Source: Pseudopedobacter saltans DSM 12145 (GTDB lineage Bacteria > Bacteroidota > Bacteroidia > Sphingobacteriales > Sphingobacteriaceae). Taken from it: a stretch of DNA of 64,000 nt. The position numbers and the translations under genes were made by a program. The stretch covers positions 1,736,001 through 1,800,000 of the forward strand of contig NC_015177.1 of the NCBI RefSeq assembly GCF_000190735.1, in the 5' to 3' direction. Shown here one piece after another: positions 40,252 through 64,000 of this stretch (position 1 is the first letter of the stretch; each line of letters starts with the position of its first letter). A model generated the notes under the pieces. It worked only from the letters and a program-made list of their open reading frames with translations, searched no databases and was not told the DNA's origin.

Positions 40252-41661
40252 TTACAATGTTTTTAAATCTGCTACTCCTGCTGCTATCAGCATTAGGTTA
40301 TGAAGCTCATAATTTTTCACAAAGGGTTTTAACAGTTCACTTCCCGGGCCATACATTGCCAGTTCAACGTAATCTCCCGAGTGATCCATTGCCCCCCAAC
40401 CTACTGATGTAAATCGTTCCTGAATGATTGCCAACTCTTTAAACGGAAGCTTCCTGGGATTATACAAGCCCTTTTCATCCAATTTATCGTAATGGGAAAG
40501 GATCTTTTTTGCATCATCATTAGTAATCGCAATGCCTTGTGCCGATTCTATTTTCTCTATCAATGTATTCGGCGAGGTATTTTTGTCTATCCCATTCAGT
40601 ATCCAATTATTGGACTGTTTGAAATTGAAAATACGATCAAAGTTCTTATCTGCATTGCTGCCATAAAATAAGCCGGGGTTCGAATTACCGTGGTCGGTAG
40701 TTATTACCACCAGCGTATCGCCATCTTTCTCTGCAAAGTCCATAGCTATTCCAACTGCTTCATCAAATGCTATCTGATCATAAAGAAGCGCTGCTACATC
40801 ATTTCCATGGGCTGCCCAATCCACTTTCCCACCTTCCACCTGCAATACAAATCCTTTTTTATTTTGCTTTAATGTATTGATCGCTTTTTGTGTCATCTCC
40901 GCCAGGGTGGGGATTTTTTCTAATAGCTCTTTGTCGGAAGACCTGTCTACAGAATAAGGCAATGCATCCTGATAAAAGACCCCAAGCATTGGCTTATTGG
41001 TTCCTGCATAGCTATTCATCGATTTCCTATCCCGAAACACCTCATATCCTTTTTTAGTGTATTCGTCAAACACGTTTCGTTTGTCCTTCCTTATCTCGGA
41101 GCTGAAATTTTCCAAACCTCCGCCCATTACCACATCAATACCATGCTGAAGGTATTTCAAAGCAATTCCAGGTTCGTCACTTCTCTTATTGCTGGTTACA
41201 CAAAATCCAGCCGGAGTTGCATGCGTAGCCATAACCGTAGTTACAACTCCAGCTGATTTACCAGCCTTTTTAAATTTTTGCCATATCGGAGTATTTTCTG
41301 TCCCATCGGAGTTAACGTTTATAGCGCCATTTTGAACCCGTTTCCCTCCACCCCATGAGGAACTGGCGGCCGCCGAATCCGTTACCAGGGAATTTGCCGA
41401 AGCAGTATCCATTAATGCCCGTGCCACTTTATTTTGTTCATATAGCGACAGCCAATTCGACATTTTTCCTTCCTTTCTATGCAATAACATATTGGCCATG
41501 TTGAGGGTTCCGGTACTCATCCCGTCACTAACCAGAAAAATTATGTTTTTCGCTAATTTGCCTTTCTTTTGTACCGGTGCTGCTAAAGTTTCGAGTGGAG
41601 ATAATAAAGTGCTGCCTAAAAAAGCCAGCACACCACCTTTAAAGAGGTCTCTTCTTTTCAT
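40252..41661 (-). CDS. Alkaline phosphatase (PhoA type) with Tat signal
   Basis: Phosphomonoesterase of the alkaline phosphatase superfamily. The N-terminus MKRRDLFKGG followed by a hydrophobic stretch is a twin-arginine signal, so the folded enzyme is exported. D46 (FLVSDGMS) is the first zinc/magnesium ligand, S96 in VTDSAAASSSW is the nucleophile, and VITTDHGNSN and DHSGDYV carry further metal ligands. 469 residues. It is the last gene of PUL 2 after the glycerophosphodiesterase, so it may take phosphate from the monoesters produced upstream. It stands 42 nt past the GDPD gene. Confidence 0.93.
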   Translation of the reverse strand: MKRRDLFKGGVLAFLGSTLLSPLETLAAPVQKKGKLAKNIIFLVSDGMSTGTLNMANMLLHRKEGKMSNWLSLYEQNKVARALMDTASANSLVTDSAAASSSWGGGKRVQNGAINVNSDGTENTPIWQKFKKAGKSAGVVTTVMATHATPAGFCVTSNKRSDEPGIALKYLQHGIDVVMGGGLENFSSEIRKDKRNVFDEYTKKGYEVFRDRKSMNSYAGTNKPMLGVFYQDALPYSVDRSSDKELLEKIPTLAEMTQKAINTLKQNKKGFVLQVEGGKVDWAAHGNDVAALLYDQIAFDEAVGIAMDFAEKDGDTLVVITTDHGNSNPGLFYGSNADKNFDRIFNFKQSNNWILNGIDKNTSPNTLIEKIESAQGIAITNDDAKKILSHYDKLDEKGLYNPRKLPFKELAIIQERFTSVGWGAMDHSGDYVELAMYGPGSELLKPFVKNYELHNLMLIAAGVADLKTL

Positions 41662-41703
41662 GCTTTAAAGTTATGATTAGAATATTAAGTAAATGCTAAT
41701 TAT

Positions 41704-42621
41704 TTAATAAAAATGGCGGTTTTTACTTTTAAGATAGTCTATTAAGTACTGGGGACGATCAGTTTGTATGATTCTTGCTCCCAAATCATTTATCAAATAT
41801 CCGTAACCTTTATCCGGGTCCTTCAAAGACATATCATCATCATGTCCTCCCGCCATAGTATCCCACAAAGTGTTATACCATATCAATGATTTTCCTTGTA
41901 AGGTTTTTGAGAGCTGTTTGGGCAAAGGATTAGCATCCTTAACATACAATAGCTCAAAAGCGACCGGATTTAATTCCTTAATAAAATCGTCTATCATCTT
42001 CTGTGCGTTCGGCTTGTCCAGATTCACAATAGGCATATAGATTACTTTGTCCAGATATTTACCAAACTGTTCTTTTACTTTTTGTGAAGTTGCAGTACCT
42101 TTCATTATGATATGATCTACTGTACCGGTTTTCTCCAACAAAACATAAACTTCATCGAAAACATCGTAAGCTTTATCTAAGTTCAGCATTATCTTTCCTT
42201 TAGACAGTAGTAAGGTTTCTTCCAATGTAGGTACTTTATGTATAGTCTTTATTGCCGCGCCATTACGCAAATTCAAATTTCGTATAGAGTCTAATGTCCA
42301 GGTACTAACAGCTCCTTTGCCCGTAGTAGTTCTGTCTAAAGTTTTGTCATGCATCAAAATCAACTGTCCGTCTTTGGTTTTCTGGATATCTATTTCAACA
42401 ACATCAACTCCCATTTTTATTGCGTTCTCTATGGCAGCTAAAGAATTTTCAGGGGCATAGCGCCAATCGCCGCGATGTGCCACCACCAATACATCTTTCC
42501 CATTTTTATCGAACAACTTTCGCCTTGTTTCGTCAACGCGGGTTTGGGCCACTAAAGCAAAAGTGCCATGTAAAAAGAGTATAAAAATGATTATTTGTTT
42601 CAATGCTGATGATCTACTCAT
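41704..42621 (-). CDS. Glycerophosphodiester phosphodiesterase, PUL 2 copy
   Basis: Cleaves glycerol-3-phosphate diesters. The catalytic AHRGDWRYAPENS, VEIDIQKTKDGQLILMHD and DRTTTGKG are complete GDPD motifs. The ATG at 42621 gives MSRSSALKQIIIFILFLHGTFALVAQ, a normal signal peptide; an upstream ATG at 42702 adds 27 residues and is less likely. It is about 90% identical by eye to the GDPD at 55052-55957, with most DNA differences silent. It sits between GH20 and alkaline phosphatase genes. Periplasmic or surface; substrate may be glycerol-phosphate units of a glycan or glycerophosphodiester headgroups. Confidence 0.92.
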   Translation of the reverse strand: MSRSSALKQIIIFILFLHGTFALVAQTRVDETRRKLFDKNGKDVLVVAHRGDWRYAPENSLAAIENAIKMGVDVVEIDIQKTKDGQLILMHDKTLDRTTTGKGAVSTWTLDSIRNLNLRNGAAIKTIHKVPTLEETLLLSKGKIMLNLDKAYDVFDEVYVLLEKTGTVDHIIMKGTATSQKVKEQFGKYLDKVIYMPIVNLDKPNAQKMIDDFIKELNPVAFELLYVKDANPLPKQLSKTLQGKSLIWYNTLWDTMAGGHDDDMSLKDPDKGYGYLINDLGARIIQTDRPQYLIDYLKSKNRHFY

Positions 42622-42770
42622 ATTATTTATTTCTTCTTCCTGTTTTTTTCTAAATCCACTAAAAGTAAAAAGGATCTGTCTGCCATGATAATATTCGCTC
42701 ATTTAGACAAAATCCATATGTAGCTTTTTTCTAAGTCTTGCAACGCAAACACTTCATCATTTATTTACCC

Positions 42771-44345: not shown

Positions 44346-44457
44346 AAAAAAGGTTTATAAAAGGATGTCTCAAAACTAAGATCTTTATCATTTAGAAGAA
44401 TTTAAATAAGCTTTTTCAAATTCATCGGAGAGAAATCTCATTTTTATTCCTAAAGAG

Positions 44458-46310: not shown

Positions 46311-47261
46311 TTAATTAGTTACAGAAACTACAATTAAACCATTAGCCACGGATCGCTCTTGTCCGCCATTATCTGTTGGCCAGTTCTTCACTACAAATCT
46401 GCCTGCATCAGAAGCTAGAGTGTTTCTAATAAAGAAGGTACTGGAACCACCGCCATCCAGATTAATAGCCTGATACGCTCCTATCGCTTTCATAAACTTG
46501 GCCAAATCATCATAATTCATCCCATTCGAATAATGGAAATTACGACCATCTACTACTAGCATATAAACCTTCTTTCCTTCTTTGTCTACACCTATACATG
46601 TTCTTGGCTCCAACTTCTTGTCTGTTTGCTGAACAGCAACTCCATCTTTCAATAAAGTCACTCTTCCACCAACCGCTTCCTGAATATTATTTTTTATATC
46701 CGGATACATTTGCTGATTGCCTATAACAGCCTTACCATCTTTGGTGATTGCAAAAAATGTATTCACGGCGTCAGTAACAGTGGTTTTAATAGGCAGTCCT
46801 TCTTTATAAACAATTCCTTGCGGAACACCGGTATCCATATTATAAAAATCCGCATTGATACCTGCCCACACCTTATGCCCTTCAAAATCTTCATAAGTTG
46901 CCTGTTTGGTCATCGGTTGCATACCAAAAGTAGGCGAATTGCTAGGTGTAGAAGCTTCTATCCTTACCTGCGGATTTGTCAAATCAATTTCGAAAACAAA
47001 TGCTTTCATCGACAGACCAGTACCCGACAAATAACGCACTTCCGTAGCATCAACACCGCTGGTAACGCTATAAGTCGTATCCGAGGTAATGCTAGCGATT
47101 AAATCACTGTTATTTACAACTTTAGTTGTAACTGGCGTTTTTGGATGCGCAACAAATTGATCGTAAGGTTTTATCAGGCCTTCATCATTGCTGCAACCTA
47201 CCGCCATCAGCATCGAGAAAGTAAGCCCTAATGGTAATAATATATATTTTATATTTTTCAT
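46311..47261 (-). CDS. Phosphodiester glycosidase lipoprotein (DUF2233/NAGPA-like), PUL 2 copy
   Basis: Lipoprotein (lipobox AVGC, C23) with the NAGPA/DUF2233 domain found in the human mannose 6-phosphate uncovering enzyme, which hydrolyses the GlcNAc-1-phosphodiester bond. Family landmarks are WAGINADFYNMDTGVPQG, RTCIGVDKEG, VYMLVVDGRN, the central GMNYDDLAKFMKAIGAYQAINLDGGGSSTFF (with the conserved DGGGSS loop) and the C-terminal SVANGLIVV. 316 residues, complete. It follows susD after 21 nt. A matching paralogue lies at 61793. Substrate: a sugar-1-phosphate diester on a surface or imported glycan is inferred. Confidence 0.88.
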   Translation of the reverse strand: MKNIKYILLPLGLTFSMLMAVGCSNDEGLIKPYDQFVAHPKTPVTTKVVNNSDLIASITSDTTYSVTSGVDATEVRYLSGTGLSMKAFVFEIDLTNPQVRIEASTPSNSPTFGMQPMTKQATYEDFEGHKVWAGINADFYNMDTGVPQGIVYKEGLPIKTTVTDAVNTFFAITKDGKAVIGNQQMYPDIKNNIQEAVGGRVTLLKDGVAVQQTDKKLEPRTCIGVDKEGKKVYMLVVDGRNFHYSNGMNYDDLAKFMKAIGAYQAINLDGGGSSTFFIRNTLASDAGRFVVKNWPTDNGGQERSVANGLIVVSVTN

Positions 47262-47282: not shown

Positions 47283-48557
47283 TTAATAGTGCGGATTAGG
47301 TTCAAGATTAGGATTATATTGCAATTCACGGCCCGGAATAGGAAGTACAGTCTGATAATCTAAAATACCAAGCTTTTGTACCGCTGTATTGGTACGCACT
47401 AAGTCGTAATACCTAAAATTTTCTCCAAACAGCTCCAGATTTCGTTCATTCAAAATTGCTTCCTGATATTGTCCATCCGAATTAACGGCTATATCCTGCA
47501 ATCCTCTGAAACGACGTAACTCGTTTAATCTGGAAATGCCTTCTGCTCTTCCTTGTGCTTCTGCACTGATTAAATATAATTCTGAAATTCTGGAGATAAT
47601 TACCGGATCTCTTCCAGTTTGTCCGCTTGGATATTTATTTACACAATAAGTACCTGCGATATTTACAAGAGAGATATCCCTTCGTTTATCAGTACTTACA
47701 AAGGCGTCAACCATTTGCTGAGAAACTCTGTAATTTCCCTGACCTTTATTAGGATGGGCGTAAGAATAAAAAAGATCGGAAATATTAATACTGGATTCTT
47801 CGGTTCTGTTTTCGAAAGCAAAAATGATTTCGGTATTAGATAATTTTCTGAATATTTTTTCAAAACTATCCAGTTTGTATTTGCCAGAGGTTACAAGCTT
47901 TTCTGCTGTTGCAGCCGCGGCAGACTTGTTTCCCCTGTATAAATATACTCTTGCTTTCAATGCAGAAACGGCATCTTTAGAAACGTAGTAATAGTTTGTA
48001 GATTCTCCTAATAGTTGCTCCGCTTCAGTTAGATTTTCCTCTATAAATGCCCAAACCTCGTCTTTGGTATTTCTAGCTAATTTTTCCAGCGAGTTTTTAC
48101 GATAAATAGGAACTCCTCCCCATCTGGTTAACAAACTAAAATAAATATAGGCTCTAAAATAATAGGCCTCACCTAACGCCGTATTTCTAATACTGTTTGG
48201 CTCAAGCCCTTCGCATATCGAAATCACATTATTTACCTGATAAAGCGCTCCGTAATAACCATTCCAACCGTTAGACACAACACCTGCAAGAGGGCTTAAT
48301 TGAGAGTTGATTAAATCAAGGGGCGAGCCGGCGGCTGTATGCAAGTTTCCGCCTAAAATATCAAAAAGGATAAAAGCATGTACTCCGGGGTCATTCTGCA
48401 TATCGTTGTACATTCCTATCCGCAATGCGGGCAAATCCTTTTCAGTGATTGCATCTGGCGATACAGAGGAATAAGGATAAAGATCTAGCTTGTTGGCACA
48501 GGAACTTCCCAAAATCGTACTCACCAGCATCATTATATATAAATATTTCTTTTTCAT
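47283..48557 (-). CDS. SusD/RagB-family glycan-binding lipoprotein (PUL 2)
   Basis: Lipoprotein (lipobox GSSC, C20) of the SusD family, 424 residues, short for the group. Opening KLDLYPYSSVSPDAITEKDL, the helix region YYFRAYIYFSLLTRWGGVPIYRKN, and the C-terminal ISRLNELRRFRGLQ and AILNERNLELFGENFRYYDLVRT blocks are typical. It is clearly homologous along its length to the SusD at the right edge of the window. Translated 18 nt after susC and followed after 21 nt by the phosphodiester glycosidase. Surface glycan capture with the SusC porin. Confidence 0.94.
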   Translation of the reverse strand: MKKKYLYIMMLVSTILGSSCANKLDLYPYSSVSPDAITEKDLPALRIGMYNDMQNDPGVHAFILFDILGGNLHTAAGSPLDLINSQLSPLAGVVSNGWNGYYGALYQVNNVISICEGLEPNSIRNTALGEAYYFRAYIYFSLLTRWGGVPIYRKNSLEKLARNTKDEVWAFIEENLTEAEQLLGESTNYYYVSKDAVSALKARVYLYRGNKSAAAATAEKLVTSGKYKLDSFEKIFRKLSNTEIIFAFENRTEESSINISDLFYSYAHPNKGQGNYRVSQQMVDAFVSTDKRRDISLVNIAGTYCVNKYPSGQTGRDPVIISRISELYLISAEAQGRAEGISRLNELRRFRGLQDIAVNSDGQYQEAILNERNLELFGENFRYYDLVRTNTAVQKLGILDYQTVLPIPGRELQYNPNLEPNPHY

Positions 48558-48575: not shown

Positions 48576-51500
48576 TTAAAAACTGATGTTTGCTCCAATG
48601 CTATAGGTTCTTGGCTGTGGATTGTTTAGGTTATCGATACCTGAAAATCTTGGGTCCAGATTTGTATTAACTTCCGGATCCCAACCTGAGTATTTTGTCC
48701 ATAAAAACAGGTTGTCTACTTGTGCAAAAAGTCGGATCTGACTTACTTTAAATTTTTTCACTGTCAGCTCCGGCAAGAGATATCCCAACGTAAGTGCCCG
48801 CAACCTGATAAATGAGGCATCTTCCAGAAATCTTGTAGAATTACGCGTATTGAATGTTTCACTGGCTATTGCCCGTGGATAAACATTAGTCGTACCCGGT
48901 CCGGTCCAACGATTGTCTACATACTCTTCCAACTGGGCAAATCTGTAACCTATACGACCCAATCCGTTTGGTTTCCATGCAGCATAAATATTTGCGCCAT
49001 AGCTGTAAGTAGTCAATACATCCAACTGCAGCTTTTTATATTTGAAACTGTTGCTCCAACCTCCAGAAAATTTGGGATTCGACGATCCTACAACAACACG
49101 ATCGTTATCATTGATAATATTATTACCATCTAAATCCGTCCATCTAACATCTCCTGCCCTCACACCTAAATCAAACTGAGCTTGTGGAACTTCTCCGTCG
49201 TATTGATAAATTCCTCGCGATTCGAACAAATAATAAGAACCAATATCTCTGCCTACTACAAGCGCCCTATTGTCGCCAATAGAAATCGGCTTATTATCAT
49301 TATCTATAAGAGATAAGATTTTATTCTTGTTGTGCGCAATATTGAAATTAGAATTCCAGGCTACAGGCCCTAATTTAAAATGTGTATTCGCAGAAAACTC
49401 TATACCTCTGTTTTCCATCGACCCGATATTCGATATGATACTTGTCATACCACTGGTTGCCTGGATAGGCATACTATATAACAAGTCTGTAGTTTTCTTA
49501 TAATAGGCATCAACAGACAAATTAACCCTTCTTTTAAACAAAGAAATATCAAAGCCAAAGTCATACTGATCTGCCTTTTCCCAGGTCAGGTCTTCGTTAC
49601 CAAAAGTAGAAACAGATATTCCGCTAAGGCCACCATAATTTTGCCCGCCAGCGATTAAGGGCTGATATGCATAATTTCCAATTCCTTCCTGATTTCCTGT
49701 TTTCCCGTAACTCGTTCTTAGTTTTAAATCCAGATTTGTTCCATCCATAAAATCTTCCTTCGAAACATTCCAACCAAAAGATAATGAAGGAAATATGCCC
49801 CATCTGTGATCAGCCCTGAATTTAGAAGAACCGTCTGCCCGCAATGTTCCGGTAAATATATATTTATCATCGTAAGACATTGTTGCCCGACCAAAATAGG
49901 ACTCTAAAGCGTACTCGCTTGGTGCTCCACTTGCGCTGGTTATTTCAGATGCAACAGACACTACTCCTAAAGAAGGCGTTGGAAATCCACGGGCATCTAT
50001 ATTTGAATTCCTGCTATGTAATTTCTGAAAAGAATGCCCTAACAAACCGCTTACGGTGTATTTTCCGAAAGTGTTGGTATAATTAAGGATATTCTCCGTC
50101 AGGTAATTCTGTATCATACGATTATCATCCAGTAATCTACCCACTCCGGTACCGTAAGGATGTCTTTCATTATAGTAAGTGTAATCGTAGGTATAACCAA
50201 TATCAGCACTAAATGATGATTTGAAAGATATATTCTCGTTAAAATTTATCTTACCATAATAAGTTCCCAAATACCTGAAATTGTCTACGTAAGCTATCTG
50301 CTCATTTAGAATCTGAACTGGATTATGACGCATCAATTCGTCTGTTCCGCCAACATAATAATCTCCGTTAGGTTTATAAGGCCTGTCAAAAGGTCTTTGT
50401 TCAATAGCCCTTGCCAGAATAGTAGAACCCAGATTCGCTCCCGGAACCTGATTGTTTCGGATATAATTTCCCATATTATTGAAACCTATCTCTAACCAAT
50501 CATTAAACTTGTGACTGAATTTGGTATTCAGATTATACTTTTTAATAGAATTGTTATGCACAACCCCTTCCTGATCCGTAAAGCCTAAGCCTACATAATA
50601 TTGAGTTTTTGTGGTGCCTCCTGAGAAATTGGTATTGATATTCTTAAAGTAACCTTTTTGCAGAATTAAACCCAACCAATCGGTATCAGGCATATTTCCA
50701 AACGGATTGGAAATAGGAATTTTATAGTTGGCGTCTCCGGGTTTTAAACCATATTGTTTATTATAGTTTTCCTGCCCTTCGTTAAATTGTAATATATAAA
50801 GATTCGAATTGGCTATTTTCAGTTTTTCTTTATCAGCGAATTCAGAAAAGCCGGTAGTTACATCTACTTTTACAATGTTTTTTCCATTCTTTCCAGATTT
50901 TGTGGTAATTAAGATAACACCATTACTGGCTCTGGAACCGTATATTGCAGCAGAAGCAGCATCTTTTAATACTTCTATAGATTCTATGTCGGCATGATTG
51001 AACGCAGCAAGCGGACTATAAGTTTCTCCAAAATCATAAATAGACATATTGGAATTATTAATAGGCACACCATCTACCACATACAAAGGATTGTTACCAG
51101 CACTGATAGAAGAACTTCCTCTTATAGAAATTCGTTCCCCTGAGGCAAGATTACCCGAACCGATCGATAAGTTTACCCCTGCAATCCGTCCTTCCAGCAT
51201 CCTGGCAGGAGACGAAACTTGTCTTACATCCTCATCCTTAAACTTTACACTACCAATAGCACTTGTAACCAATTCCCTTCTTTGGCTTCCATAACCAACA
51301 ACAACAATCTCATTCAGCTCAGATTGAGCGGTTTTCAACGATATGCGTAAGTCTGTATTGCTCTTAGCTTCTACTTCTTTAGTTTCGAAACCGGTGAAAG
51401 TTACCGATAACACCGTTCCCTCAACAATATTTCTAATTATAAAAATACCGTCAACATCAGTTATTGTCCCCATGTTTCCAGCCTTCGTTCTGACAGTAGC

Positions 51501-55051: not shown

Positions 55052-55957
55052 TTATTTCCGTCGTATTTTTTTCAGATAATCAATCAAATATTGTGGCCTG
55101 TCAGTTTGTATAATTCTTGCTCCTAAATCATTTATCAAATATCCATAGCCTTTATCAGGGTCCTTCAGCGACATATCGTCATCATGTCCCCCTGCCATTG
55201 TATCCCACAAAGTGTTGTACCATATCAGGCTTTTTCCTTTTAAGCTTTTTGCCAACTTTTTCGGCAAAGGATTACTGTCCTTAACAAATAAAAGTTCAAA
55301 AGCTACAGGATTCAGTTCCGTTACAAAATCCTCTATAGTTATTTGTGCATTAGGCTTGTCTAAATTCACAATAGGCATATAAATCACTTTGTCTAAATAT
55401 TTTCCAAACTGCTCTTTTACTTTTTGTGAAGACGCAGTACCTTTCATTATGATATGATCTACCGTACCTGTTTTTTCCAACAATGCATAAACTTCATCAA
55501 AAACATCGTAGGCTTTGTCTAAATTCAGCATTATTTTACCCTTAGATAATAAAAGTACTTCTTCCAATGTGGGCACTTTATGAATGGTTTTTATGGCAAT
55601 TCCATTTTTTAAATTCAAATTCTTTATAGAATCCAATGTCCAGGTACTTATCAATCCCTTTCCAGTTGTTGTTCTATCCAAAGTTTTATCGTGCATTAGA
55701 ATTAACTGTCCATCTTTTGTTTTCTGAATATCTATTTCTACAACATCCACTCCCATTTCTATTGCGTTCTCTATAGCAGCCAAAGAATTTTCAGGAGCAT
55801 AACGCCAGTCTCCACGATGCGCTACAACTAATACTTCTTTACTGTTTTTATCAAACAACTTTCGCCTTGTTTCATCAATATGGGTTTGTGCGGAAAGTGC
55901 TATCGGAATGGAGCACAGAAAAAGTATTACAATCTTAAGGTTTAATCTTTTTAACAT
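55052..55957 (-). CDS. Glycerophosphodiester phosphodiesterase, PUL 3 copy
   Basis: Same enzyme type as the PUL 2 copy: signal peptide (about 1-23, ending LSAQ), AHRGDWRYAPENS, VEIDIQKTKDGQLILMHD and DRTTTGKG motifs. By eye about 22 of roughly 270 aligned residues differ from the gene at 41704-42621, with only the leaders and last residues unlike. It is the last gene of the PUL 3 operon, 34 nt after the NHL gene, whereas in PUL 2 the copy is followed by an alkaline phosphatase. Exported. Cleaves glycerol-phosphate diesters; whether free headgroups or a polymer is not known. Confidence 0.92.
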   Translation of the reverse strand: MLKRLNLKIVILFLCSIPIALSAQTHIDETRRKLFDKNSKEVLVVAHRGDWRYAPENSLAAIENAIEMGVDVVEIDIQKTKDGQLILMHDKTLDRTTTGKGLISTWTLDSIKNLNLKNGIAIKTIHKVPTLEEVLLLSKGKIMLNLDKAYDVFDEVYALLEKTGTVDHIIMKGTASSQKVKEQFGKYLDKVIYMPIVNLDKPNAQITIEDFVTELNPVAFELLFVKDSNPLPKKLAKSLKGKSLIWYNTLWDTMAGGHDDDMSLKDPDKGYGYLINDLGARIIQTDRPQYLIDYLKKIRRK

Positions 55958-55991: not shown

Positions 55992-57590
55992 TTATTCTAC
56001 AATAAATTTCACCGAATCATTACTTCCCTGACTATTTAAAGCAACCACATATATTCCTTTTTGCAAGGAAATGGGTAATGATATTTTAACTGTTTCCTGA
56101 TTGATTGAAGTTGACAACATCTCTTTACCTGTTATTGTAAATACTTTCACAAATCCTTTTTCAAACAGTTTTTCATCCAACTCCAATACAAGCTTTTTAT
56201 CAGCACTGTAGTAAGCGTTCAATTTGCTTTTTGCCTGGATATTAAAATTCACGGTAGCAATATTGGACAATGATATTTTTCCATCAAAATCAACCTGCTC
56301 CAATTGATAGTAATTGATGCCTTTTAATGGATTGTAGTCTGTAAAATGATAATCCATCTCTTGGGTTGAATTCCCATTTCCAATTACCACGCCCAATGTT
56401 GTAAAATCCTGAGCATTTGATGACCTTAAAATTCTAAAATGAGAGTTATTTGATTCTGATGCGGTTTGCCATTGAATTTTGACCTGACTATTGTTAGCTG
56501 TTGCCGTAAATGAGCTTAGCTGCACAGGTAATGGAGAAGGAACAAGTTTACGAATGCTATGGTTAACATTGTCCGCCACATATATATTTCCATTTTCATC
56601 TGTAACTACATCATAAGGCTGATTAAAAGTTGCTACATTTCCCAAACCATCTATTCTTCCTGTACTACCGGTTCCTGCAATGGTTGTTACTGTAGCTGTT
56701 GTCCAATCACCATTTTCACCCGGAGTTATTTTTCTGATACGGTTAAAGCTTGCATCTGCAAAAATAATATTGCCATCATTATCGAAATTCAAACCAAACA
56801 CATCACCTAAACGAGCGGTTAAAGGCTTACCAGATTCTCCGTCTGTAAAATTAGTACTGGCTTGAAGACCTACAATAGTAGAAATTGTTCCTGTTTTTGT
56901 AATCATTCTAATGGTACGCGAGTCGGAAACAAATAAATTGTCTGCCGCATCTATTGCCAAAGATATTGGCCAAACCACAGTTCCAGAAGTAGTTCCGTCG
57001 CCAGCAACGGTACTTACCGTTGCTGTTGTCCAGTTTCCTCCAGCACCTGGAGTTATCTTTCTTACTCTCCTGTTGTTTCTGTCAGCAATAAAGATGTTTC
57101 CATCGCTATCTACTACAGCATCCAAAGCATTATCAAATCTTGCTACAGAAACAGCACCATCTGAGTATCCTGCAGACCCCGTCCCTGCAATGGTGCTTAC
57201 TGTACCGTCTAAAGCTATCTTTCTTATTCTTGCACCGTCTTTCTCAACAACAATAATATTTCCTGCAGCATCCACAGTACTTTGCCAAGGAGTATTAAAT
57301 TGCCCAGGCTTTCCATTAGCATAACCAGAAACACCTGTTCCTGCAAGAGTGCTCACAACTCCTGCCGTAGTCATTTTGCGAATGCTGTGATTGGTTCTGT
57401 CTGTGATAATGATATCCCCGTTCATATCTACCAATATCCCATCCGGATTTCTAAATCTGGCATCCAAACCATTGCCATCTACAAAACCAAATGTGGTAGA
57501 TCCTGCAACAGTTGTTACCGTATAATTTTGCGACTTGGTTACCATATAGGTACCCAGCATAAGTATTAAAGTCAAATAAATTCTTTTCAT
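55992..57590 (-). CDS. NHL-repeat beta-propeller protein with type IX secretion sorting domain
   Basis: Signal peptide (about 1-20), NHL repeats from about 22 to 350 (repeating RNPDGILVDMNGDIIITDRTNHSIRKM-type units, several with VSTLAGTG or IAGTGSTG), then a fibronectin-like segment (about 357-440; LSSFTATANNSQVKIQWQTASE) and a C-terminal domain of the type A sorting kind (KVFTITGKEML, LQKGIYVVALNSQG, SVKFIVE). It would be secreted across the outer membrane by the type IX system, unlike the lipoprotein relative at 60457. Part of the coding sequence (57251-57503) is nearly identical to that gene. Probably a binding propeller for glycan or peptide. Confidence 0.85.
   Translation of the reverse strand: MKRIYLTLILMLGTYMVTKSQNYTVTTVAGSTTFGFVDGNGLDARFRNPDGILVDMNGDIIITDRTNHSIRKMTTAGVVSTLAGTGVSGYANGKPGQFNTPWQSTVDAAGNIIVVEKDGARIRKIALDGTVSTIAGTGSAGYSDGAVSVARFDNALDAVVDSDGNIFIADRNNRRVRKITPGAGGNWTTATVSTVAGDGTTSGTVVWPISLAIDAADNLFVSDSRTIRMITKTGTISTIVGLQASTNFTDGESGKPLTARLGDVFGLNFDNDGNIIFADASFNRIRKITPGENGDWTTATVTTIAGTGSTGRIDGLGNVATFNQPYDVVTDENGNIYVADNVNHSIRKLVPSPLPVQLSSFTATANNSQVKIQWQTASESNNSHFRILRSSNAQDFTTLGVVIGNGNSTQEMDYHFTDYNPLKGINYYQLEQVDFDGKISLSNIATVNFNIQAKSKLNAYYSADKKLVLELDEKLFEKGFVKVFTITGKEMLSTSINQETVKISLPISLQKGIYVVALNSQGSNDSVKFIVE
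57251..57503. repeat. 253-bp near-identical tract, copy A (with 61146-61398)
   Basis: This stretch aligns without gaps to 61146-61398 with 3 mismatches in 253 bp, including an uninterrupted identical run of roughly 175 bp. Flanking NHL coding sequence is clearly less alike. Both lie in the same frame and strand of the two NHL genes, offset 3895 bp. Confidence 0.85.
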
Positions 57591-57614: not shown

Positions 57615-59423
57615 TTAATTTTTTAAAACCGTAGTTATTACTAGACTTCTTCTTCCTGATGATGTAAAGACCACACTTTTCAATATTCTTTCTTCTCCTT
57701 TTGGCACATGTACTTTAACAGCATCTGTATATTTAAAATCAAAGTCATAAGGAGTCTTACCATTAATGGTATAATAGATAGCTGCCCCCTTCACTGGCAC
57801 TTTATATTTCAGTTCAAAATTCTCACCTGTCAACGTGGTATCTTTTGCTCCTATAGGTTCGGGCACACGGTATATTAAACCTTTCTGATCTAAATTACCC
57901 AGATGCAACGCAACTCTGTTTTCAGAAAAATCTTTCCAATCTTTATTTGCCAGCGGTGTCCAGGCAATTTCCGACAAGGCGAAAATTCGTGGATAAATCA
58001 TATACCTTACTTTTTCAGGAGTTTTGATATACTCTGTCCAAAGATTAGCCTGTACGCCAATGATGTATTTTTGTTCTTCTTTTGTCAATTCCTCCGGAAC
58101 GGGATTGTAAGCATATACTTTAGACAATGGGACGTGACCACCAATGGTTAGAGGTTCTTCGCTTGATTTACTTTCTTGTTTATCAAAATAGAGATATGGA
58201 CCGGGAGTCATAATCACTTTATGCGAAAGTTTTGCCGCAGCGATTCCTCCTTTGGTTCCTCTCCAGCTCATCACGGTTGCATTAGGGGCTAATCCACCTT
58301 CTAAAATCTCATCCCACCCAATAATCTGTCTGCCTTTTTTATTGAGATATTTCTCTATCCTGTGAATAAAATAGGACTGTAATTCATGCTCATCTTTCAG
58401 CTTTTCTTTTAGGATTCTTTTTTGGCAGAATTCACAAGTTTTCCATTTGGTTTTCGGACATTCATCGCCTCCTATATGGATATATTCCGATGGAAACAAA
58501 AGCAACACTTCATCCAAAACATCTTGTAAAAACTTGAAGGTTTGTTCTTTTCCTGCACAAAAAACATCATCAAAAACACCCCATTCATAAGCTGCTTTAA
58601 AGGAAGTCGGATTTTTACCACAAGCCAATTCAGGATAGGCAGAAAGTGCTGCTAAAGCATGTCCCGGCATTTCTATTTCAGGTACAACGGTAATATATTT
58701 AGATGCAGCATAAGCGACAACTTCCTTTACCTCTTCCTGTGTATAAAATCCACCATACCTCTCGTTATCATATTGTTTAGGATTATCACGCAGATAACCA
58801 ATTAAGGTCTGATCTCTGAAACCACCAATAGAGGTAAGTTTAGGATACTTTTTAATTTCTATTCTCCAGCCTTGGTCTTCGGTCAAATGCCAATGAAAGG
58901 TATTTAGCTTGTAATAAGCCAACATATCTATGTATTCCTTTATGAAACTTACCGGAAACAGGTGTCTCGCAACGTCCAAATGCATCCCCCTATAAGCGAA
59001 CCTTGGATAATCTTCAATCTCAAGAAATGGAATTCCAGTTTGGTTTGTATTTAGAATTTGTAAAAGCGTTTGCAATCCATAAAAAACACCACGTTCTGTT
59101 GTTGAGCGTATACTTATTTCATCCTTTTTAACACTTAGCAGATATCCCTCTTCTTTAATAGCTAAAGATTTATCCAGTATCAATTTCAGACCCGGCCTTT
59201 GCTGTAGATCTATAAAGGAAAGCTGACCGACAAATTTTGCAAGACTGTTAGTGTTATTGAACCCGACAAACTTAACACCAATCTTACTAGATAAAGGATA
59301 ACTTCCATCTCCAATTATTACTTTTACAGGAGCTGGGATAATTCCTAACGAAGTATTATTTTGAGCTGTTAACTGAGTTAAAGATGTCAGCAATAGCCAA
59401 ATCAAAACACTAATTTTCTTCAT
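57615..59423 (-). CDS. GH20 beta-N-acetylhexosaminidase, PUL 3 copy, with C-terminal domain
   Basis: Exported hexosaminidase: signal peptide (about 1-20), GH20b-type N-terminal domain, catalytic barrel with MHLDVARHLFPVSFIKEYIDM, FHWHLTEDQGWRIEIKKYP and catalytic D320-E321 in HIGGDECPKTKW, then GWDEILEGG. Beyond the barrel (from about residue 515) is a chitobiase-like C-terminal beta domain with YYTINGKTPYDFDFKYTDAVKV. At 602 residues it is longer than the PUL 2 copy, which ends after the barrel. The two are well diverged. Acts on terminal beta-GlcNAc or GalNAc in PUL 3. Confidence 0.94.
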   Translation of the reverse strand: MKKISVLIWLLLTSLTQLTAQNNTSLGIIPAPVKVIIGDGSYPLSSKIGVKFVGFNNTNSLAKFVGQLSFIDLQQRPGLKLILDKSLAIKEEGYLLSVKKDEISIRSTTERGVFYGLQTLLQILNTNQTGIPFLEIEDYPRFAYRGMHLDVARHLFPVSFIKEYIDMLAYYKLNTFHWHLTEDQGWRIEIKKYPKLTSIGGFRDQTLIGYLRDNPKQYDNERYGGFYTQEEVKEVVAYAASKYITVVPEIEMPGHALAALSAYPELACGKNPTSFKAAYEWGVFDDVFCAGKEQTFKFLQDVLDEVLLLFPSEYIHIGGDECPKTKWKTCEFCQKRILKEKLKDEHELQSYFIHRIEKYLNKKGRQIIGWDEILEGGLAPNATVMSWRGTKGGIAAAKLSHKVIMTPGPYLYFDKQESKSSEEPLTIGGHVPLSKVYAYNPVPEELTKEEQKYIIGVQANLWTEYIKTPEKVRYMIYPRIFALSEIAWTPLANKDWKDFSENRVALHLGNLDQKGLIYRVPEPIGAKDTTLTGENFELKYKVPVKGAAIYYTINGKTPYDFDFKYTDAVKVHVPKGEERILKSVVFTSSGRRSLVITTVLKN

Positions 59424-59429: not shown

Positions 59430-60326
59430 TTACTTTTTTAGAACCAGTACTAGCGGATAGTGATCCGAGATGATATCCGTATGCTTATTTTTAATCATAA
59501 AGACGGATTTGATTTTTGATTTTAACGGAGTACTAACCCATATATAATCTATACGTACATCATTGTCTGGATCATGTTTTACAACTGGGCTTGGCGCACT
59601 TTTTTCAAATCTGCTTTTGTTTTTGTATTTCCAGGCATCGGTATAACCTTTATTGATTAACTGACTGATGACCGAGTAATCAAAACCTCCATTGTTTACA
59701 TTCTGGATATGTGCTCTTGTGGCTTCATGAGCAATTAGTTTATCCAACTTTTGTTTGTTAGGATTATAATAGCTACTGTCTTGAGGAGAAAGACTATTAA
59801 AATCTCCCATAATAATGGTCTTACTATTTTTTGGAAGTTGATCTAAATGTCGAATGACTGCCTCCATCTCTGCATTTCTTTTGACATACATAAAAGGATT
59901 CAGGTGTAGATTTACAAATTGATAACCAGCTATTTCTGCAGAAATATATCCATGTAAAAAGCCCTCGGTTATACGTTGTACATTTTCTATAGGATATTTA
60001 GAAATAATTCCTGGGGGGTAACCTTTTTCCTTAAGCAATACGGCATAAGGATAAGAAAGTTCCTGAGCAAATTTCAGAAATGTTTCGTGAGTAAAATGGT
60101 TACATTCTTGTAATGTAAGTACATCCGCTTGTAAAGAATCTACCAATCTTACAAACAAAGCTCGTTTTTCTTTATCTTTTAATCCTTCCAAAATATTATA
60201 GGAAAGTATTTTTAAGCTCCTGCTTTTTTTGAGATCAGGTTTTCCTGAAGCATACACCATCGAAAAACTGAAACAAAGAAGTAAGCATACGCTTTTCTTG
60301 AAGGTAATTATCTGTTGAAAAAACAT
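59430..60326 (-). CDS. Endonuclease/exonuclease/phosphatase-family phosphodiesterase, exported
   Basis: An EEP-fold metal-dependent phosphodiesterase with an N-terminal signal sequence. Catalytic motifs are present in order: SYNILEG (Asn), LTLQECNHF (Glu), GDFNSLSP (Asp, Asn), RIDYIWV and SDHYPLVL (Asp, His). The fold covers DNases, sphingomyelinases and inositol-phosphate phosphatases; the sequence does not name a substrate. I chose the ATG at 60326 because it gives a cleaner signal peptide; the ATG at 60344 is possible. It is within PUL 3, 6 nt upstream of GH20, so the target is likely a phosphodiester in the glycan or its products. Confidence 0.85.
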   Translation of the reverse strand: MFFQQIITFKKSVCLLLCFSFSMVYASGKPDLKKSRSLKILSYNILEGLKDKEKRALFVRLVDSLQADVLTLQECNHFTHETFLKFAQELSYPYAVLLKEKGYPPGIISKYPIENVQRITEGFLHGYISAEIAGYQFVNLHLNPFMYVKRNAEMEAVIRHLDQLPKNSKTIIMGDFNSLSPQDSSYYNPNKQKLDKLIAHEATRAHIQNVNNGGFDYSVISQLINKGYTDAWKYKNKSRFEKSAPSPVVKHDPDNDVRIDYIWVSTPLKSKIKSVFMIKNKHTDIISDHYPLVLVLKK

Positions 60327-60350
60327 AAAATAATGGGATTGCAAATATTA

Positions 60351-60442: not shown

Positions 60443-60456
60443 AATAAACAGATTGA

Positions 60457-61776
60457 CTACTTATAAATAATCTTACGGATGCTGTGGTTTACATTATCTG
60501 CCACATAGATATCTCCCTTAGCATCCATGACCACATCATAAGGTTGATTGAAAGTTGCAGCATGGCCTAAACCATCACCTCTCCCAGCGGTTCCGTTTCC
60601 TGCAATGGTACTTACCGTTGCTTTTGTCCAGTCATTCCCTACACCCGGAGTTATTTTTCTTATCCTATTGTTAGAAGCATCTGCCAATAAAATATTGCCT
60701 TCATTATCGAAATTGAGTCCGAAAATATCTCCCAATTTCACAGTCAAAGGATTTCCCGGAGTTCCATCATCATAACCTTTTGTACTTCCTACAATGGTTG
60801 TCATCACTCCAGATTTAGTGATCATCTTAATACGGTTTCCGTCCGAAACAAACAGATTATCTTGCTTATCTATTGTCAATGCTATGGGAAAGGTTAAAAT
60901 AGAAGTAGTTCCATCTCCCATAAATGTACTTACCATACCAGCTGGAGTAATTTTTCTGATTCTATAGTTATTTCTATCTGCAACAAAAATATTTCCCTCA
61001 CTATCTACCACACCATCCAAAGCATGGTTAAATCTGGCGACAGATACATTTCCATCAGTAAAACCTAAAGAACCTGTTCCTGCAATTAAGCTTACTGCGC
61101 CATCAGGAGCAATTTTTCTGATTCTACCACCATCTTTTTCTATCACAATAATATTTCCTGCAGCATCCATAGTACTTTGCCAAGGAGTATTAAATTGTCC
61201 AGGCTTTCCATTAGCATAACCAGAAACACCTGTTCCTGCAAGAGTGCTCACAACTCCTGCCGTAGTCATTTTGCGAATGCTGTGATTGGTTCTGTCTGTG
61301 ATAATGATATCCCCGTTCATATCTACCAATATCCCATCCGGATTTCTAAATCTGGCATCCAAACCATTGCCATCTATAAAACCAAATGTGGTAGATCCCG
61401 CTATAGTGCTTACAATATAATTGGACTCCTTTTTTATTACTGTAAATCTAGGACCGTATATTTGTTGCCCTTTTACAGCAATGGTCACATTACCTGTAGT
61501 TGCATTATCTGGGACAATAACTTCTAATCTGTTTGGTGCAGCTTCCAAAACAACAGCCTGTACACCATTAAAAGAGACCATATTCTCGGTCTTCACTTTA
61601 GAAAAGTTTCTTCCAGTAATTATAATAATATCTTTGTTTAAGCCCGAAGAAGGATAAACAGAGGTTACCAATACATCTGTTACAGATGCTACATAACCCG
61701 ATTCTTTTTTATCACAAGCACCTGCCGTTAACAATAATCCTGCTAAGGCAAAGTGAAAAAATCTCATTTTCATCAT
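60457..61776 (-). CDS. IPT/TIG plus NHL-repeat lipoprotein (PUL 3)
   Basis: Lipoprotein (lipobox AGAC, C21), an IPT/TIG immunoglobulin-like domain (about 32-112; VTSVYPSSGLNKDIIIITGRNFS and NRLEVIVPDNATTGNVTIAVKG), then an NHL beta-propeller to the end (about 118-439, with repeated NGLDARFRNPDGILVDMNGD, IRKITP and ADNVNHSIRKI units). It occupies the slot held by the BACON/beta-helix lipoprotein in PUL 2, third after susD, so a surface glycan-binding role is likely. It shares a 253-bp near-identical tract with the NHL gene at 55992. It starts 16 nt after the phosphodiester glycosidase. Confidence 0.85.
   Translation of the reverse strand: MMKMRFFHFALAGLLLTAGACDKKESGYVASVTDVLVTSVYPSSGLNKDIIIITGRNFSKVKTENMVSFNGVQAVVLEAAPNRLEVIVPDNATTGNVTIAVKGQQIYGPRFTVIKKESNYIVSTIAGSTTFGFIDGNGLDARFRNPDGILVDMNGDIIITDRTNHSIRKMTTAGVVSTLAGTGVSGYANGKPGQFNTPWQSTMDAAGNIIVIEKDGGRIRKIAPDGAVSLIAGTGSLGFTDGNVSVARFNHALDGVVDSEGNIFVADRNNYRIRKITPAGMVSTFMGDGTTSILTFPIALTIDKQDNLFVSDGNRIKMITKSGVMTTIVGSTKGYDDGTPGNPLTVKLGDIFGLNFDNEGNILLADASNNRIRKITPGVGNDWTKATVSTIAGNGTAGRGDGLGHAATFNQPYDVVMDAKGDIYVADNVNHSIRKIIYK
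61146..61398. repeat. 253-bp near-identical tract, copy B (with 57251-57503)
   Basis: See copy A: 250 of 253 positions match, no gaps, same strand and reading frame. It codes for the first complete NHL units after the TIG domain. Confidence 0.85.
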
Positions 61777-61792
61777 GCTAATTTTTTAGGAA

Positions 61793-62731
61793 TTAATTTT
61801 CTGAAACAATCATCCATGCATGTGCAACCGCCCTTGGTCTTCCATCTGATGGCCTATTTCTAACCTGTAAAATATCTGCTTCCGGATTTCGGATCATCAT
61901 AGTTGCCGAACCACCTCCATCTAAATTGATAGAAGAATGCGTTCCCAACGCATAGAAAATACCTGAAAGATCTGAATAGGTTGCTCCATTGGAATTGTAG
62001 AAATTACGACCATCAACAACAATGAAATACATAATATCGTCTTCGGTATAACCTATGGCAATTCTTGGATCCAATGCTACTGCAAAACGTGAGTTGTCTA
62101 CTTTCTCTCCGTTTCTGGTCAACAAGGCCCCACCTCCCGTGGCTTCCTTCAAATCGGATTTTACTGCATCATATTCATTGGCATATCCAATAATAGGTTT
62201 GCCATCTTTCTTAATCCCAATAAAACTTAAGGCTTGTTGTGGCAAACTTACAGATGGTGTAAAGTTCCCTTTAATAACCACACCATTTTTATGCAATGGA
62301 CCTCTTGGTAAAAAATTGGCAATATCATAGAAGTCACCGTTTACACCACCCAAAACTTTAGTATTGGCATTTTCTATATATTTTGCCATATCGGGAACAG
62401 TTTGTCCGGTATAACCGGGAGAATCATAAGGCGTAGCTACTTTCACTTTTATACCCGGCACTTTTAAATCTACTTTAAGGATAAAAACACGGGTAGTCAG
62501 TCCATCTTTTTTGAGAAAATGAATTTCCGTTTCTTCTATTCCATTGGCTACAACAATGGTAGTATCGGTGTAAACTTCGCTTACAATACCAGATTTTTCC
62601 AACAATAGTTTACTTATCTCGGATAGGTTATTGTCTAAAACCTTTTTTGTTGCTTCTTCATCTTTACAGGCTGTTAAAAAAACAGCGTTTAATACCAATA
62701 GATAAAGCAATCTTTTCATCGTCTTTTTCAT
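61793..62731 (-). CDS. Phosphodiester glycosidase lipoprotein (DUF2233/NAGPA-like), PUL 3 copy
   Basis: Second NAGPA-like lipoprotein of the window (lipobox LTAC, C22 from the chosen start). GGVNGDFYDIANFLPRG, RIAIGYTEDD, YFIVVDGRNFYNSNGATYSDL and the conserved loop INLDGGGSATMM are all present, as is the closing RAVAHAWMIV. I start at the ATG at 62731, 16 nt past the susD stop; the ATG at 62761 would overlap susD and precede the signal peptide by ten residues. It would hydrolyse sugar-1-phosphodiesters outside the cytosol. Same position after susD as in PUL 2. Confidence 0.87.
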   Translation of the reverse strand: MKKTMKRLLYLLVLNAVFLTACKDEEATKKVLDNNLSEISKLLLEKSGIVSEVYTDTTIVVANGIEETEIHFLKKDGLTTRVFILKVDLKVPGIKVKVATPYDSPGYTGQTVPDMAKYIENANTKVLGGVNGDFYDIANFLPRGPLHKNGVVIKGNFTPSVSLPQQALSFIGIKKDGKPIIGYANEYDAVKSDLKEATGGGALLTRNGEKVDNSRFAVALDPRIAIGYTEDDIMYFIVVDGRNFYNSNGATYSDLSGIFYALGTHSSINLDGGGSATMMIRNPEADILQVRNRPSDGRPRAVAHAWMIVSEN

Positions 62732-62747
62732 AATATTACCTGTTTTC

Positions 62748-64000
62748 TTAATATCCATCATTAGGTTCTAAAAGTGTATTCAGCAATAACTCTCTTGCCG
62801 GAATTGGCAATTTCGTTTGTGCAGCTCTTAAACCAATATCTTGTTGTGCTCTGCCTAATCTCACCAAATCGTACCATCTGAAACCTTCGCCTAACAGTTC
62901 TCTTCTGCGTTCCAAAAGCACTGCTTCCAGATATTGGTTATCATTGGTTACACTAATACTGCTTAATCCTCTTTTGTTTCGCAATTCGTTTAACCGGCTA
63001 ATTCCTGCCATACCTTGTCCTTCTGCACTTATCAGGTACATTTCTGCCAATCGGGTAACAATGATAGGATCTGAGCCTGTTTGTCCGCTTGGGTACTTAT
63101 TGATGACATCTAAACTGGAATAGGTATCTACAGAGATTGCCCTGCGTTTATCTGTAGACTCAAATAGATTCATTACCTCTGTTGTAGGCTTATAGTTGTA
63201 GCTTCCGCTAACGGGATGCGCATAAGTATAAAATAAAACACTTAGGTTAATGCTTGATTCTATCGTTTGGTTCAGGAAAGAAAAGATTACTTCTGTATTC
63301 TGTTGAGACCTGAAGATCTTCTCAAATTCATCCAGCTGGAATCTGCCGGAAGTAATAACTTCTTCAGCAAGTAAGGCTGCTTCCCTCTTTTTACCTTGAG
63401 CCAGTTTTGCTCTGGCCAATAAAGCTTTTGCTGCATCTTTAGAAACATAGTAGTAACCACCAAAAGTTGGTGCTTTATCTATAGCCAATTGCAGTTCGGT
63501 TTCTATGAAACTCCAAACTTCTGCTTCTGTATTTCTTGGAAGTTTTTGCGTAGCTGTGCTATTGATAATAGGTACTCCGCCCCATCTGGTTACCAAATTA
63601 TAATAGGTGTAACCCCTAAAGAAATGTGCTATGCCTAAAATCTCTTCTCTTCTGCTTTCATTTTGCATATTGGCAGTAGAAGCAATTAAATTATTAACCT
63701 GATAAATGGCAGCATAGTAACCGTTCCATTGCGCTGCAATATTCCCATTTTCTGGTTGCAGAATATCATTTATCATTTCCAGATAACCGCCTAAACCAGA
63801 AGCACCACCTCTTACTAAATTACCGCCAATAATATCAAACATCACATAAGAAGAATTGGTTGGCGTATTTTGTACCCTATTGTAAACCCCGTTCACAAAA
63901 GCTTCTATATCTTTTTCACTTAAGCTTTCGGTTGCCACCTGCGAGTGCGGATATAAGTTAAGACTGTCTTCACATGATGAACAGATCATCAGCGCAAGCA
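62748..64000 (-). CDS. SusD/RagB-family lipoprotein (PUL 3), 5' end outside the window
   Basis: SusD homologue whose reading frame is still open at the right edge: codons before the first in-window ATG (63989) read LAL, followed by MICSSCEDS, which is the end of a lipoprotein signal with the lipidated cysteine. The true start is therefore beyond 64000. DSLNLYPHSQVATESLSEKDIEAF, HFFRGYTYYNLVTRWGGVPI and AVLLERRRELLGEGFRWYDLVRL are typical SusD blocks, and it aligns along its length with the PUL 2 SusD. Its SusC partner should lie immediately to the right. Confidence 0.92.
   Translation of the reverse strand, partial: LALMICSSCEDSLNLYPHSQVATESLSEKDIEAFVNGVYNRVQNTPTNSSYVMFDIIGGNLVRGGASGLGGYLEMINDILQPENGNIAAQWNGYYAAIYQVNNLIASTANMQNESRREEILGIAHFFRGYTYYNLVTRWGGVPIINSTATQKLPRNTEAEVWSFIETELQLAIDKAPTFGGYYYVSKDAAKALLARAKLAQGKKREAALLAEEVITSGRFQLDEFEKIFRSQQNTEVIFSFLNQTIESSINLSVLFYTYAHPVSGSYNYKPTTEVMNLFESTDKRRAISVDTYSSLDVINKYPSGQTGSDPIIVTRLAEMYLISAEGQGMAGISRLNELRNKRGLSSISVTNDNQYLEAVLLERRRELLGEGFRWYDLVRLGRAQQDIGLRAAQTKLPIPARELLLNTLLEPNDGY

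Follow-up and report, generated by a model that had tools for sequence, protein, structure and literature searches.

Two paralogous SusC/D loci of Pseudopedobacter saltans combine predicted phosphodiester-cleaving enzymes with a hexosaminidase

The window, a 64,000-nucleotide stretch of the genome of the soil bacterium P. saltans DSM 12145, ends in two neighboring SusC/D loci, PUL2 and PUL3, both on the minus strand and with Pfam matches above the curated cut-offs (Table 1). In agreement with the sequence-only reading, Pfam finds in both a SusD, a NAGPA-family protein straight after it, a variable surface lipoprotein, a GH20 hexosaminidase and a GDPD, with an alkaline phosphatase as the extra gene of PUL2 and an EEP-fold protein as that of PUL3. 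SusC adjoins SusD in each locus and a carbohydrate-active enzyme, GH20, lies within the gene run. From SusC through the final enzyme gene, all genes of a locus share a strand; they are spaced by 4-190 bp, apart from a single overlap of 14 bp. This content supports PUL2 and PUL3 as two predicted substrate-uptake loci that join enzymes of phosphodiester- and phosphomonoester-cleaving families to a hexosaminidase.

Table 1. Genes of PUL2 and PUL3, in window positions (genes beyond the window are given in window-equivalent positions)
Feature	Position	Strand	Evidence
PUL2 alkaline phosphatase, PF00245	40252-41661	-	240.6 bits, cut-off 24.4; last gene of the run
PUL2 GDPD, PF03009 + DUF4996 (PF16387)	41704-42702	-	Pfam; 3i10 E 7e-108
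PUL2 GH20 hexosaminidase, PF00728	42771-44345	-	Pfam E 1e-97
PUL2 surface lipoprotein, BACON + right-handed beta-helix	44536-46299	-	Pfam; lipobox-like FVSC
PUL2 NAGPA, PF09992, lipobox	46311-47261	-	Pfam E 3e-43, 148.4 bits, cut-off 25
PUL2 SusD	47283-48557	-	PF14322/PF07980
PUL2 SusC (TonB-dependent receptor)	48576-51953	-	Pfam
PUL2 FecR-type anti-sigma factor	52115-53227	-	PF04773/PF16344
PUL2 ECF sigma factor	54326-54916	-	PF04542/PF08281
PUL3 GDPD + DUF4996	55052-55957	-	Pfam; 88% identity to PUL2 copy
PUL3 NHL beta-propeller protein, type IX secretion tail	55992-57590	-	Pfam; TIGR04183 above cut-off
PUL3 GH20 hexosaminidase	57615-59423	-	Pfam E 1e-124; 6q63 beta-hexosaminidase E 1.5e-158
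PUL3 EEP-fold phosphodiesterase/phosphatase (predicted)	59430-60344	-	PF03372 E 3e-16
PUL3 TIG-NHL surface lipoprotein	60457-61776	-	Pfam; lipobox AGAC
PUL3 NAGPA, lipobox	61793-62761	-	Pfam E 5e-32, 111.9 bits, cut-off 25; 3ohg E 3e-21
PUL3 SusD	62748-64000, continues past window end	-	Pfam; complete in L006:8748-10031
PUL3 SusC, outside window	64036-67539	-	Flanking sequence L006
PUL3 FecR, outside window	67558-68685		Flanking sequence L006
PUL3 ECF sigma, outside window	68841-69428		Flanking sequence L006

The family signatures are present (GGDE in GH20, HRG in GDPD, NLDGGGS in NAGPA, DSAA in the alkaline phosphatase, and N, E, H, GDFN, D and SDH in the EEP protein), and we take these motifs to be the catalytic residues. 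Both NAGPA proteins exceed the PF09992 cut-off and are predicted to hydrolyze GlcNAc-1-phosphodiesters; the PUL2 copy matches 3ohg (E 1e-30), presumably a Bacteroides DUF2233/NAGPA structure, and the solved NAGPA 6pky (E 7e-12). Each GDPD starts with HRG, and PF03009 matches over the N-terminal half alone (1-103 and 1-112 of 244). Pfam detects no canonical GDPD C-terminal half in either protein and places DUF4996 there, and the solved structure 3i10, a putative glycerophosphoryl diester phosphodiesterase, spans both parts (PUL2 query 63-330). The alkaline phosphatase has 7kwd as its closest solved structure (E 4e-57) and, by eye, a Tat-like N-terminus, while the PUL2 GH20 matches the beta-N-acetylhexosaminidase 8pxu (E 2e-118) and has a signal-peptide-like N-terminus. 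A structure model of the EEP protein (pLDDT 67.5) takes the general EEP fold, with AP endonucleases and exonuclease III as best matches; it points to no subfamily and to no substrate class. The fold model of the PUL2 beta-helix lipoprotein, built from two sequences, was discarded as too poor (pLDDT 52); relatives of this protein occur in loci L027 and L109.

The proposal that the two loci are paralogous holds well above chance, with amino-acid identities of 45% for SusC, 50% for SusD, 33% for NAGPA and 36% for GH20; FecR reaches 40% and sigma 27%. The GDPDs reach 88% and form a recent block common to both loci, with 82% DNA identity limited to 825 bp, so that GDPD is possibly a late addition. 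Searching for the same gene set elsewhere, as the sequence-only reading had suggested, recovered the PUL3 set in near order in Maribellus luteus (L045), which carries SusC-SusD-NAGPA-NHL-GH20-EEP-GDPD at 58, 49, 46, 37, 49, 38 and 67% identity to PUL3, with the order of EEP and GH20 swapped and the second NHL gene missing. Because the arrangement is kept in this distant genus, the combination is no accident. The core of SusC, SusD, NAGPA and an NHL or beta-helix protein was found again in other genomes: L107 carries SusC-SusD-NAGPA-NHL (58, 62, 48 and 46% identity), followed by one NAGPA and NHL-repeat fusion protein and a type I phosphodiesterase, and L109 carries the PUL2 core SusD-NAGPA-beta-helix (59, 51 and 42.5%).

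The full set is rare. Clean profiles placed NAGPA in 2/55, GH20 in 3/55, EEP in 1/55 and alkaline phosphatase in 1/55 GDPD loci, 54 of them with a clean GDPD match and many ending at contig ends. Around those 54 genes of this GDPD subfamily, SusD lies just upstream in 24, an OPA-family (organophosphate) transporter, an assignment tested on five proteins, just downstream in 25, and both in 20, with SusD, two GDPDs and OPA together in 15. NAGPA occurs in 67 of 113 other genomes of the order with GDPD (these belong to a set of 129 such genomes that match DUF4996) and lies within about 12 kb of GDPD in four, positions being paired by eye; in three of these NAGPA is part of its own convergent operon, and in the remaining one the match is only partial. 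In a phylum sample NAGPA was mostly outside PULs (SusC/D cluster in 3/20 NAGPA-centred loci), and clean profiles found neither GDPD nor EEP in 11 further NAGPA PULs (L007, L082, L083, L089, L099, L100, L105, L106, L107, L109 and L111), chosen from the NAGPA matches and leaving out PUL2 and PUL3 themselves, L016, L045 and also L110, where NAGPA lies upstream of FecR. Since GDPD and NAGPA co-occur so rarely, GDPD, GH20, alkaline phosphatase and EEP look interchangeable, like swappable add-ons to a core of SusC, SusD, NAGPA and surface protein. The third NAGPA PUL of P. saltans itself (L007) carries PF01663.

Relatives of the EEP protein sit mostly behind SusD, with NAGPA in 2/48, GDPD in 2/48 and GDSL in 16/48 loci by clean, non-iterated profiles; the loci were taken down the score list except L139 and L140, picked for a nearby DUF4996 gene, and L139 is one of the two GDPD matches. 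EEP therefore need not signal this substrate. A GDPD count of 17/48 was voided, as the iterated profile had absorbed GDSL/SGNH esterases by way of GDPD-GDSL fusions (Pfam). A control set of 20 SusD loci from the same family contained no GDPD, EEP, alkaline phosphatase or OPA gene, and GH20 in one locus. These loci span about 13 kb (4 kb in one case), mainly downstream of SusD, against mostly 11-20 kb for the test loci, and two of them (L123 and L132) have no same-strand gene downstream. As controls we took every third non-G613 row of the SusD matches and replaced an own-genome row that lay close to a NAGPA gene, so that their NAGPA count of 0/20 is partly by construction. The NHL matches in 8/48 EEP loci and 4/11 NAGPA PULs do not speak for an enrichment, the same profile matching 5/20 controls. 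Of 57 proteins encoded behind SusD in NAGPA PULs, Pfam assigned 5 to NHL and 4 to PLDc_2; neither family is among the best 25 of 82 families in 82 control proteins, where each thus has at most one member.

We propose, with a probability of about 0.5, that the two loci import a phosphodiester-joined amino-sugar glycan and cut it to HexNAc, glycerol 3-phosphate and phosphate. In the scheme that we infer, each locus would be a SusC/SusD uptake system under its own ECF-sigma/FecR pair, whose surface module (SusC, SusD, lipoprotein NAGPA and the beta-helix or TIG-NHL lipoprotein) would bind the glycan. At the surface or close to it, NAGPA would free HexNAc from the sugar-1-phosphodiester, and SusC/D would be the entry route of the fragments. 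In the periplasm, GH20 would remove beta-HexNAc, GDPD would cut glycerophosphodiester bonds to glycerol 3-phosphate, and phosphate would be released by the alkaline phosphatase in PUL2 and by EEP in PUL3. Glycerol 3-phosphate or glycerol would be consumed via a separate glp cluster, present in the genome as a GDPD, an OPA-type transporter, a DeoR-type regulator and a GlpD-like dehydrogenase. The SusC/D-GDPD-transporter loci elsewhere and this cluster fit a glycerophosphate product, which lends indirect support, and glycerol use is described as setting P. saltans apart from other Pedobacter (PMC3236043).

The target put forward by the sequence-only reading, a phosphodiester-containing amino-sugar glycan, is plausible and partly supported: the enzyme families and the Maribellus conservation speak for it, the rare co-occurrence of GDPD and NAGPA against it. 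Its narrower suggestion of teichoic acid or a GlcNAc-1-phosphate polymer did not gain in the same way, as nothing in the sequence separates candidate glycans; a glycerol teichoic-acid-like polymer would be our best single guess. Only tentatively might this be a PUL family devoted to feeding on soil neighbors: it would draw carbon, nitrogen and phosphate from the glycerol teichoic acids of Gram-positive bacteria, or from wall polymers of poly-GlcNAc-1-phosphate, and lipoprotein NAGPA would make the first cut at the surface.

The loci could instead scavenge glycerophosphodiesters, with SusC/D importing those of lipid head groups or glycolipids and NAGPA and GH20 merely trimming amino-sugar-bearing variants. 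The frequent company of SusC/D and OPA in GDPD loci and the scarcity there of NAGPA and GH20 favor this view, and the GDPD-GDSL esterase fusions of L013, L015 and L043 would fit deacylation of acylated glycerophosphates. Yet Pfam finds no OPA gene in PUL2 or PUL3, and the core beside SusD, NAGPA with a beta-helix or NHL lipoprotein, is shared with the GDPD-less L107 and L109, so that we consider it unlikely. A phosphorylated eukaryotic glycan, such as GlcNAc-1-phosphate capping sugars or proteins in fungi or in protists, amoebae among them, where GH20 would act on N-glycan antennae, is improbable: neither locus has a mannosidase or endo-hexosaminidase family (Pfam) and GDPD would have no obvious role, although, among solved structures, the PUL3 GH20 comes closest to 6q63, which we take to be a Bacteroides N-glycan enzyme. 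The known substrate of animal NAGPA, GlcNAc-1-phosphodiester on mannose (PMC12024695), also points that way.

Ordinary amino-sugar PULs for chitin oligosaccharides or mucin-type glycans, with phosphate enzymes gained by chance, would account for the GH20 in a control locus, for alkaline phosphatase being confined to PUL2 and EEP to PUL3, and for a chitobiase-type C-terminal domain match in the PUL3 GH20 slightly below cut-off. We hold this to be quite improbable, given that Pfam shows no GH18 or chitin-binding family in the loci and that the NAGPA-GH20-EEP-GDPD set is kept in Maribellus. There is a slim chance of nucleic-acid or nucleotide-sugar uptake, a reading suggested by the EEP model's top fold matches, by the cleavage of UDP-GlcNAc by animal NAGPA (PMC12024695), and by 576 SusC/D loci with PF00149/PF01663 phosphodiesterases for which nucleic acids were proposed (PMC6499787). 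However, neither GH20 nor GDPD would have an obvious use in handling nucleic acids, and those 576 loci are described as lacking known CAZymes, whereas PUL2 and PUL3 carry GH20.

PUL2 and PUL3 resemble ECF-sigma/FecR-controlled SusC/D PULs in their SusC-SusD pair, lipoprotein by SusD, glycoside hydrolase and own sigma/anti-sigma pair; unlike ordinary ones, they fill the slot after SusD with a phosphodiester-glycosidase-family protein, and their enzymes belong mostly to phosphate-ester-cleaving families. With the CAZyme-less loci of PMC6499787 they share SusC/D and phosphodiester-cleaving enzymes, but these are GDPD, NAGPA, EEP and alkaline phosphatase instead of PF00149/PF01663. Their NAGPA proteins are of the same family as 3ohg and the uncovering enzyme (6pkg-6pky), with the NLDGGGS motif, but differ in being lipoproteins adjoining SusD. 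In Bacillus subtilis, GlpQ and PhoD are teichoic-acid hydrolases, and a phosphodiesterase and alkaline phosphatase were suggested to act jointly on lipoteichoic acid (PMC11188070); that system serves turnover of the cell's own wall, without SusC/D or NAGPA, and Pfam scans found no PhoD domain in PUL2 or PUL3. The literature searched, in which few subscription papers were covered, yielded no bacterial NAGPA with measured activity, and its listed matches (including PMC11188070, PMC8211771, PMC6499787, PMC12024695 and PMC3236043) included no PUL for teichoic acid and no NAGPA PUL.

As the SusC-SusD-NAGPA core recurs, substrate identification is directly testable in the cultured type strain. If true, uptake of a phosphodiester-joined amino-sugar glycan would explain what the NAGPA/DUF2233, GDPD-DUF4996, NHL and beta-helix proteins adjoining SusD are for, and would be a way for some Bacteroidota to draw carbon, nitrogen and phosphate from phosphodiester-linked glycans.

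Pfam scans bore out the genes that the sequence-only reading had named in PUL2 and PUL3, and the two loci are paralogous as it claimed, with pairwise amino-acid identities of 27-88% (SusC 45%, SusD 50%, NAGPA 33%, GH20 36%, FecR 40%, sigma factor 27% and GDPD 88%). The two GDPD genes share 82% DNA identity across a sharp-edged block of 825 bp, outside which DNA matches between the loci are short and weaker and the flanking genes far more diverged. This suggests that GDPD alone was recently copied or converted. In PUL3, the two NHL proteins reflect an internal duplication (76% DNA identity, 988 bp). PUL3 continues past the window end with SusC, FecR and an ECF sigma factor, followed by a transposase gene. 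The single chromosome of 4,635,236 bases carries the window at 1,736,001-1,800,000, and PUL2 and PUL3 are not distinguished by G+C (0.375 and 0.366, versus 0.360 in window bases 1-40,000).

Coordinates of the features discussed. L-numbers are stretches of DNA read; L006 and L007 come from the P. saltans genome.
Feature	Position	Context
Lipoprotein-like ORF, 134 aa	window 39728-40132	same strand as PUL2 alkaline phosphatase, after it
Block of 82% DNA identity in GDPD gene, PUL2	window 41727-42549	
RibD_C (dihydrofolate-reductase-like) gene	window 53530-54150	between PUL2 ECF sigma factor and FecR; Pfam scan
Block of 82% DNA identity in GDPD gene, PUL3	window 55069-55891	
NHL protein, PUL3	window 55992-57590	
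NHL protein, PUL3	window 60457-61776	
ISL3-type transposase gene	L006:15858-16706	directly upstream of PUL3 sigma factor
Third NAGPA PUL	L007:219-14824 (genome 100,219-114,824)	SusD, DUF5689, TIG-NHL, PLD, NAGPA, GFO/IDH/MocA, NAGPA, PF01663, DUF4886
glp-like cluster	genome 3,438,919-3,443,708	GDPD, OPA-type MFS, DeoR-type regulator, GlpD-like oxidoreductase
NAGPA domain + NHL repeats, single protein	L107:9213-11156	fusion joining two PUL3 neighbours

The search for the same gene set elsewhere, which the sequence-only reading had proposed, recovered that set in Maribellus luteus (L045), but NAGPA occurs in just 2 of 55 GDPD loci (L016 and L045), with GH20 in three and EEP and alkaline phosphatase in one each. 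L045 reads SusC-SusD-NAGPA-NHL-GH20-EEP-GDPD, and each protein is closest to PUL3 (SusC, cut by the locus end, 58%; SusD 49%; NAGPA 46%; NHL 37%; GH20, here fused to a GDSL esterase, 49%; EEP 38%; GDPD 67%). At locus L107, SusC (58% identical to PUL3), SusD (62%), NAGPA (48%) and NHL (46%) are followed by one NAGPA+NHL-repeat protein and a PF01663 phosphodiesterase. Locus L109 resembles PUL2 (SusD 59%, NAGPA 51%, beta-helix 42.5%), and L141, from a congener, holds a SusD-like gene, beta-helix, DUF218, NAGPA, NHL, NAGPA, EEP and GDSL. The recurring unit is thus SusC-SusD-NAGPA plus an NHL or beta-helix protein, and the hydrolytic payload (GDPD, GH20, alkaline phosphatase, EEP, PLD, PF01663, GDSL) changes from locus to locus. 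The genome itself carries a third NAGPA PUL, and similar sets are present in L099 and L100.

The GDPD survey covered 55 loci from named genomes, 54 with a GDPD match by clean (non-iterated) profiles. SusD lies directly upstream in 24 of the 54 and a transporter of the organophosphate-antiporter (OPA) family directly downstream in 25, the family being called from five proteins scoring below curated cut-offs; both occur together in 20, and SusD, two GDPDs and the transporter in 15. DUF4996, which marks this GDPD subfamily, is found in 9/296 genomes of the phylum sample and 130/400 of the order sample, counting P. saltans itself; NAGPA is found in 109/296 of the phylum sample. NAGPA is encoded by 67 of 113 other DUF4996-bearing genomes of the order (36/58 + 31/55), but in only 4 of the 113 does it lie within about 12 kb of DUF4996: three times in a separate, convergently oriented NAGPA-GDPD-EEP operon that lacks SusC/D (L096-L098), and once as a partial NAGPA match. 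Such small separate gene groups occur in five genomes of one genus (L072, L096-L098, L108). GDPD-GDSL esterase fusions were seen in L013, L015 and L043. Two records titled Clostridium sp. (L044, L054) hold Bacteroidota-type SusC/SusD-GDPD loci and probably come from a mislabelled genome bin.

A SusC/D cluster surrounds NAGPA in 3 of 20 NAGPA-centred loci from the phylum sample (L082, L083, L089). By clean profiles, 11 further NAGPA PULs contain neither GDPD nor EEP, with GH20 and alkaline phosphatase in one each; their 57 downstream proteins include four PLDc_2 and five NHL members (Pfam). EEP relatives (E 1e-20 or better) are present in 89/400 order genomes. In the 48 EEP loci read (L139-L186), a same-strand SusD lies no more than 8 kb away in 38, with GDSL esterase in 16, GH20 in four, and NAGPA and GDPD in two each. 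EEP genes shortly after SusD, often with a GDSL esterase, are recurrent in Sphingobacteriaceae. GDPD, EEP, alkaline phosphatase and OPA genes were all absent from 20 same-family control SusD loci (GH20 in one, GDSL in one, NHL-profile matches in five), as was NAGPA, partly by construction of the set.

N-terminal signals, assigned by eye, are lipobox-like in both NAGPA proteins and in the next-slot proteins (beta-helix in PUL2, TIG-NHL in PUL3). In the two GDPDs, the two GH20s and EEP the N-terminus is signal-like and lacks a lipobox, the PUL2 alkaline phosphatase is Tat-like, and the second NHL protein of PUL3 has a T9SS tail. By these signals, NAGPA and its next-slot neighbour (beta-helix or TIG-NHL) would be surface proteins alongside SusD, and the remaining enzymes would be largely periplasmic. 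Read most economically, surface NAGPA would open a sugar-1-phosphodiester, after which GH20, GDPD and a phosphatase would act in the periplasm. Some wall polymers alternate GlcNAc-1-phosphate and glycerol phosphate, and wall teichoic acid has a GlcNAc-1-phosphate linkage unit; a glycerol teichoic-acid-like polymer would be a candidate substrate calling on all predicted activities. The glp-like cluster, whose transporter matches TIGR00881 at 512 bits, over the cut-off, may serve to import glycerol 3-phosphate and oxidise it; PMC3236043 notes glycerol use by P. saltans.

Among the matches listed in a literature search, no paper described a PUL combining NAGPA, GDPD and GH20 or addressed teichoic-acid PULs; a 2013 DUF2233-structure paper, outside its scope, may treat genomic context. 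For the proposal that PUL2 and PUL3 dismantle a phosphodiester-containing aminosugar glycan, the gene observation is confirmed and the interpretation partly supported. This reading of PUL2 and PUL3 merits a bench test.
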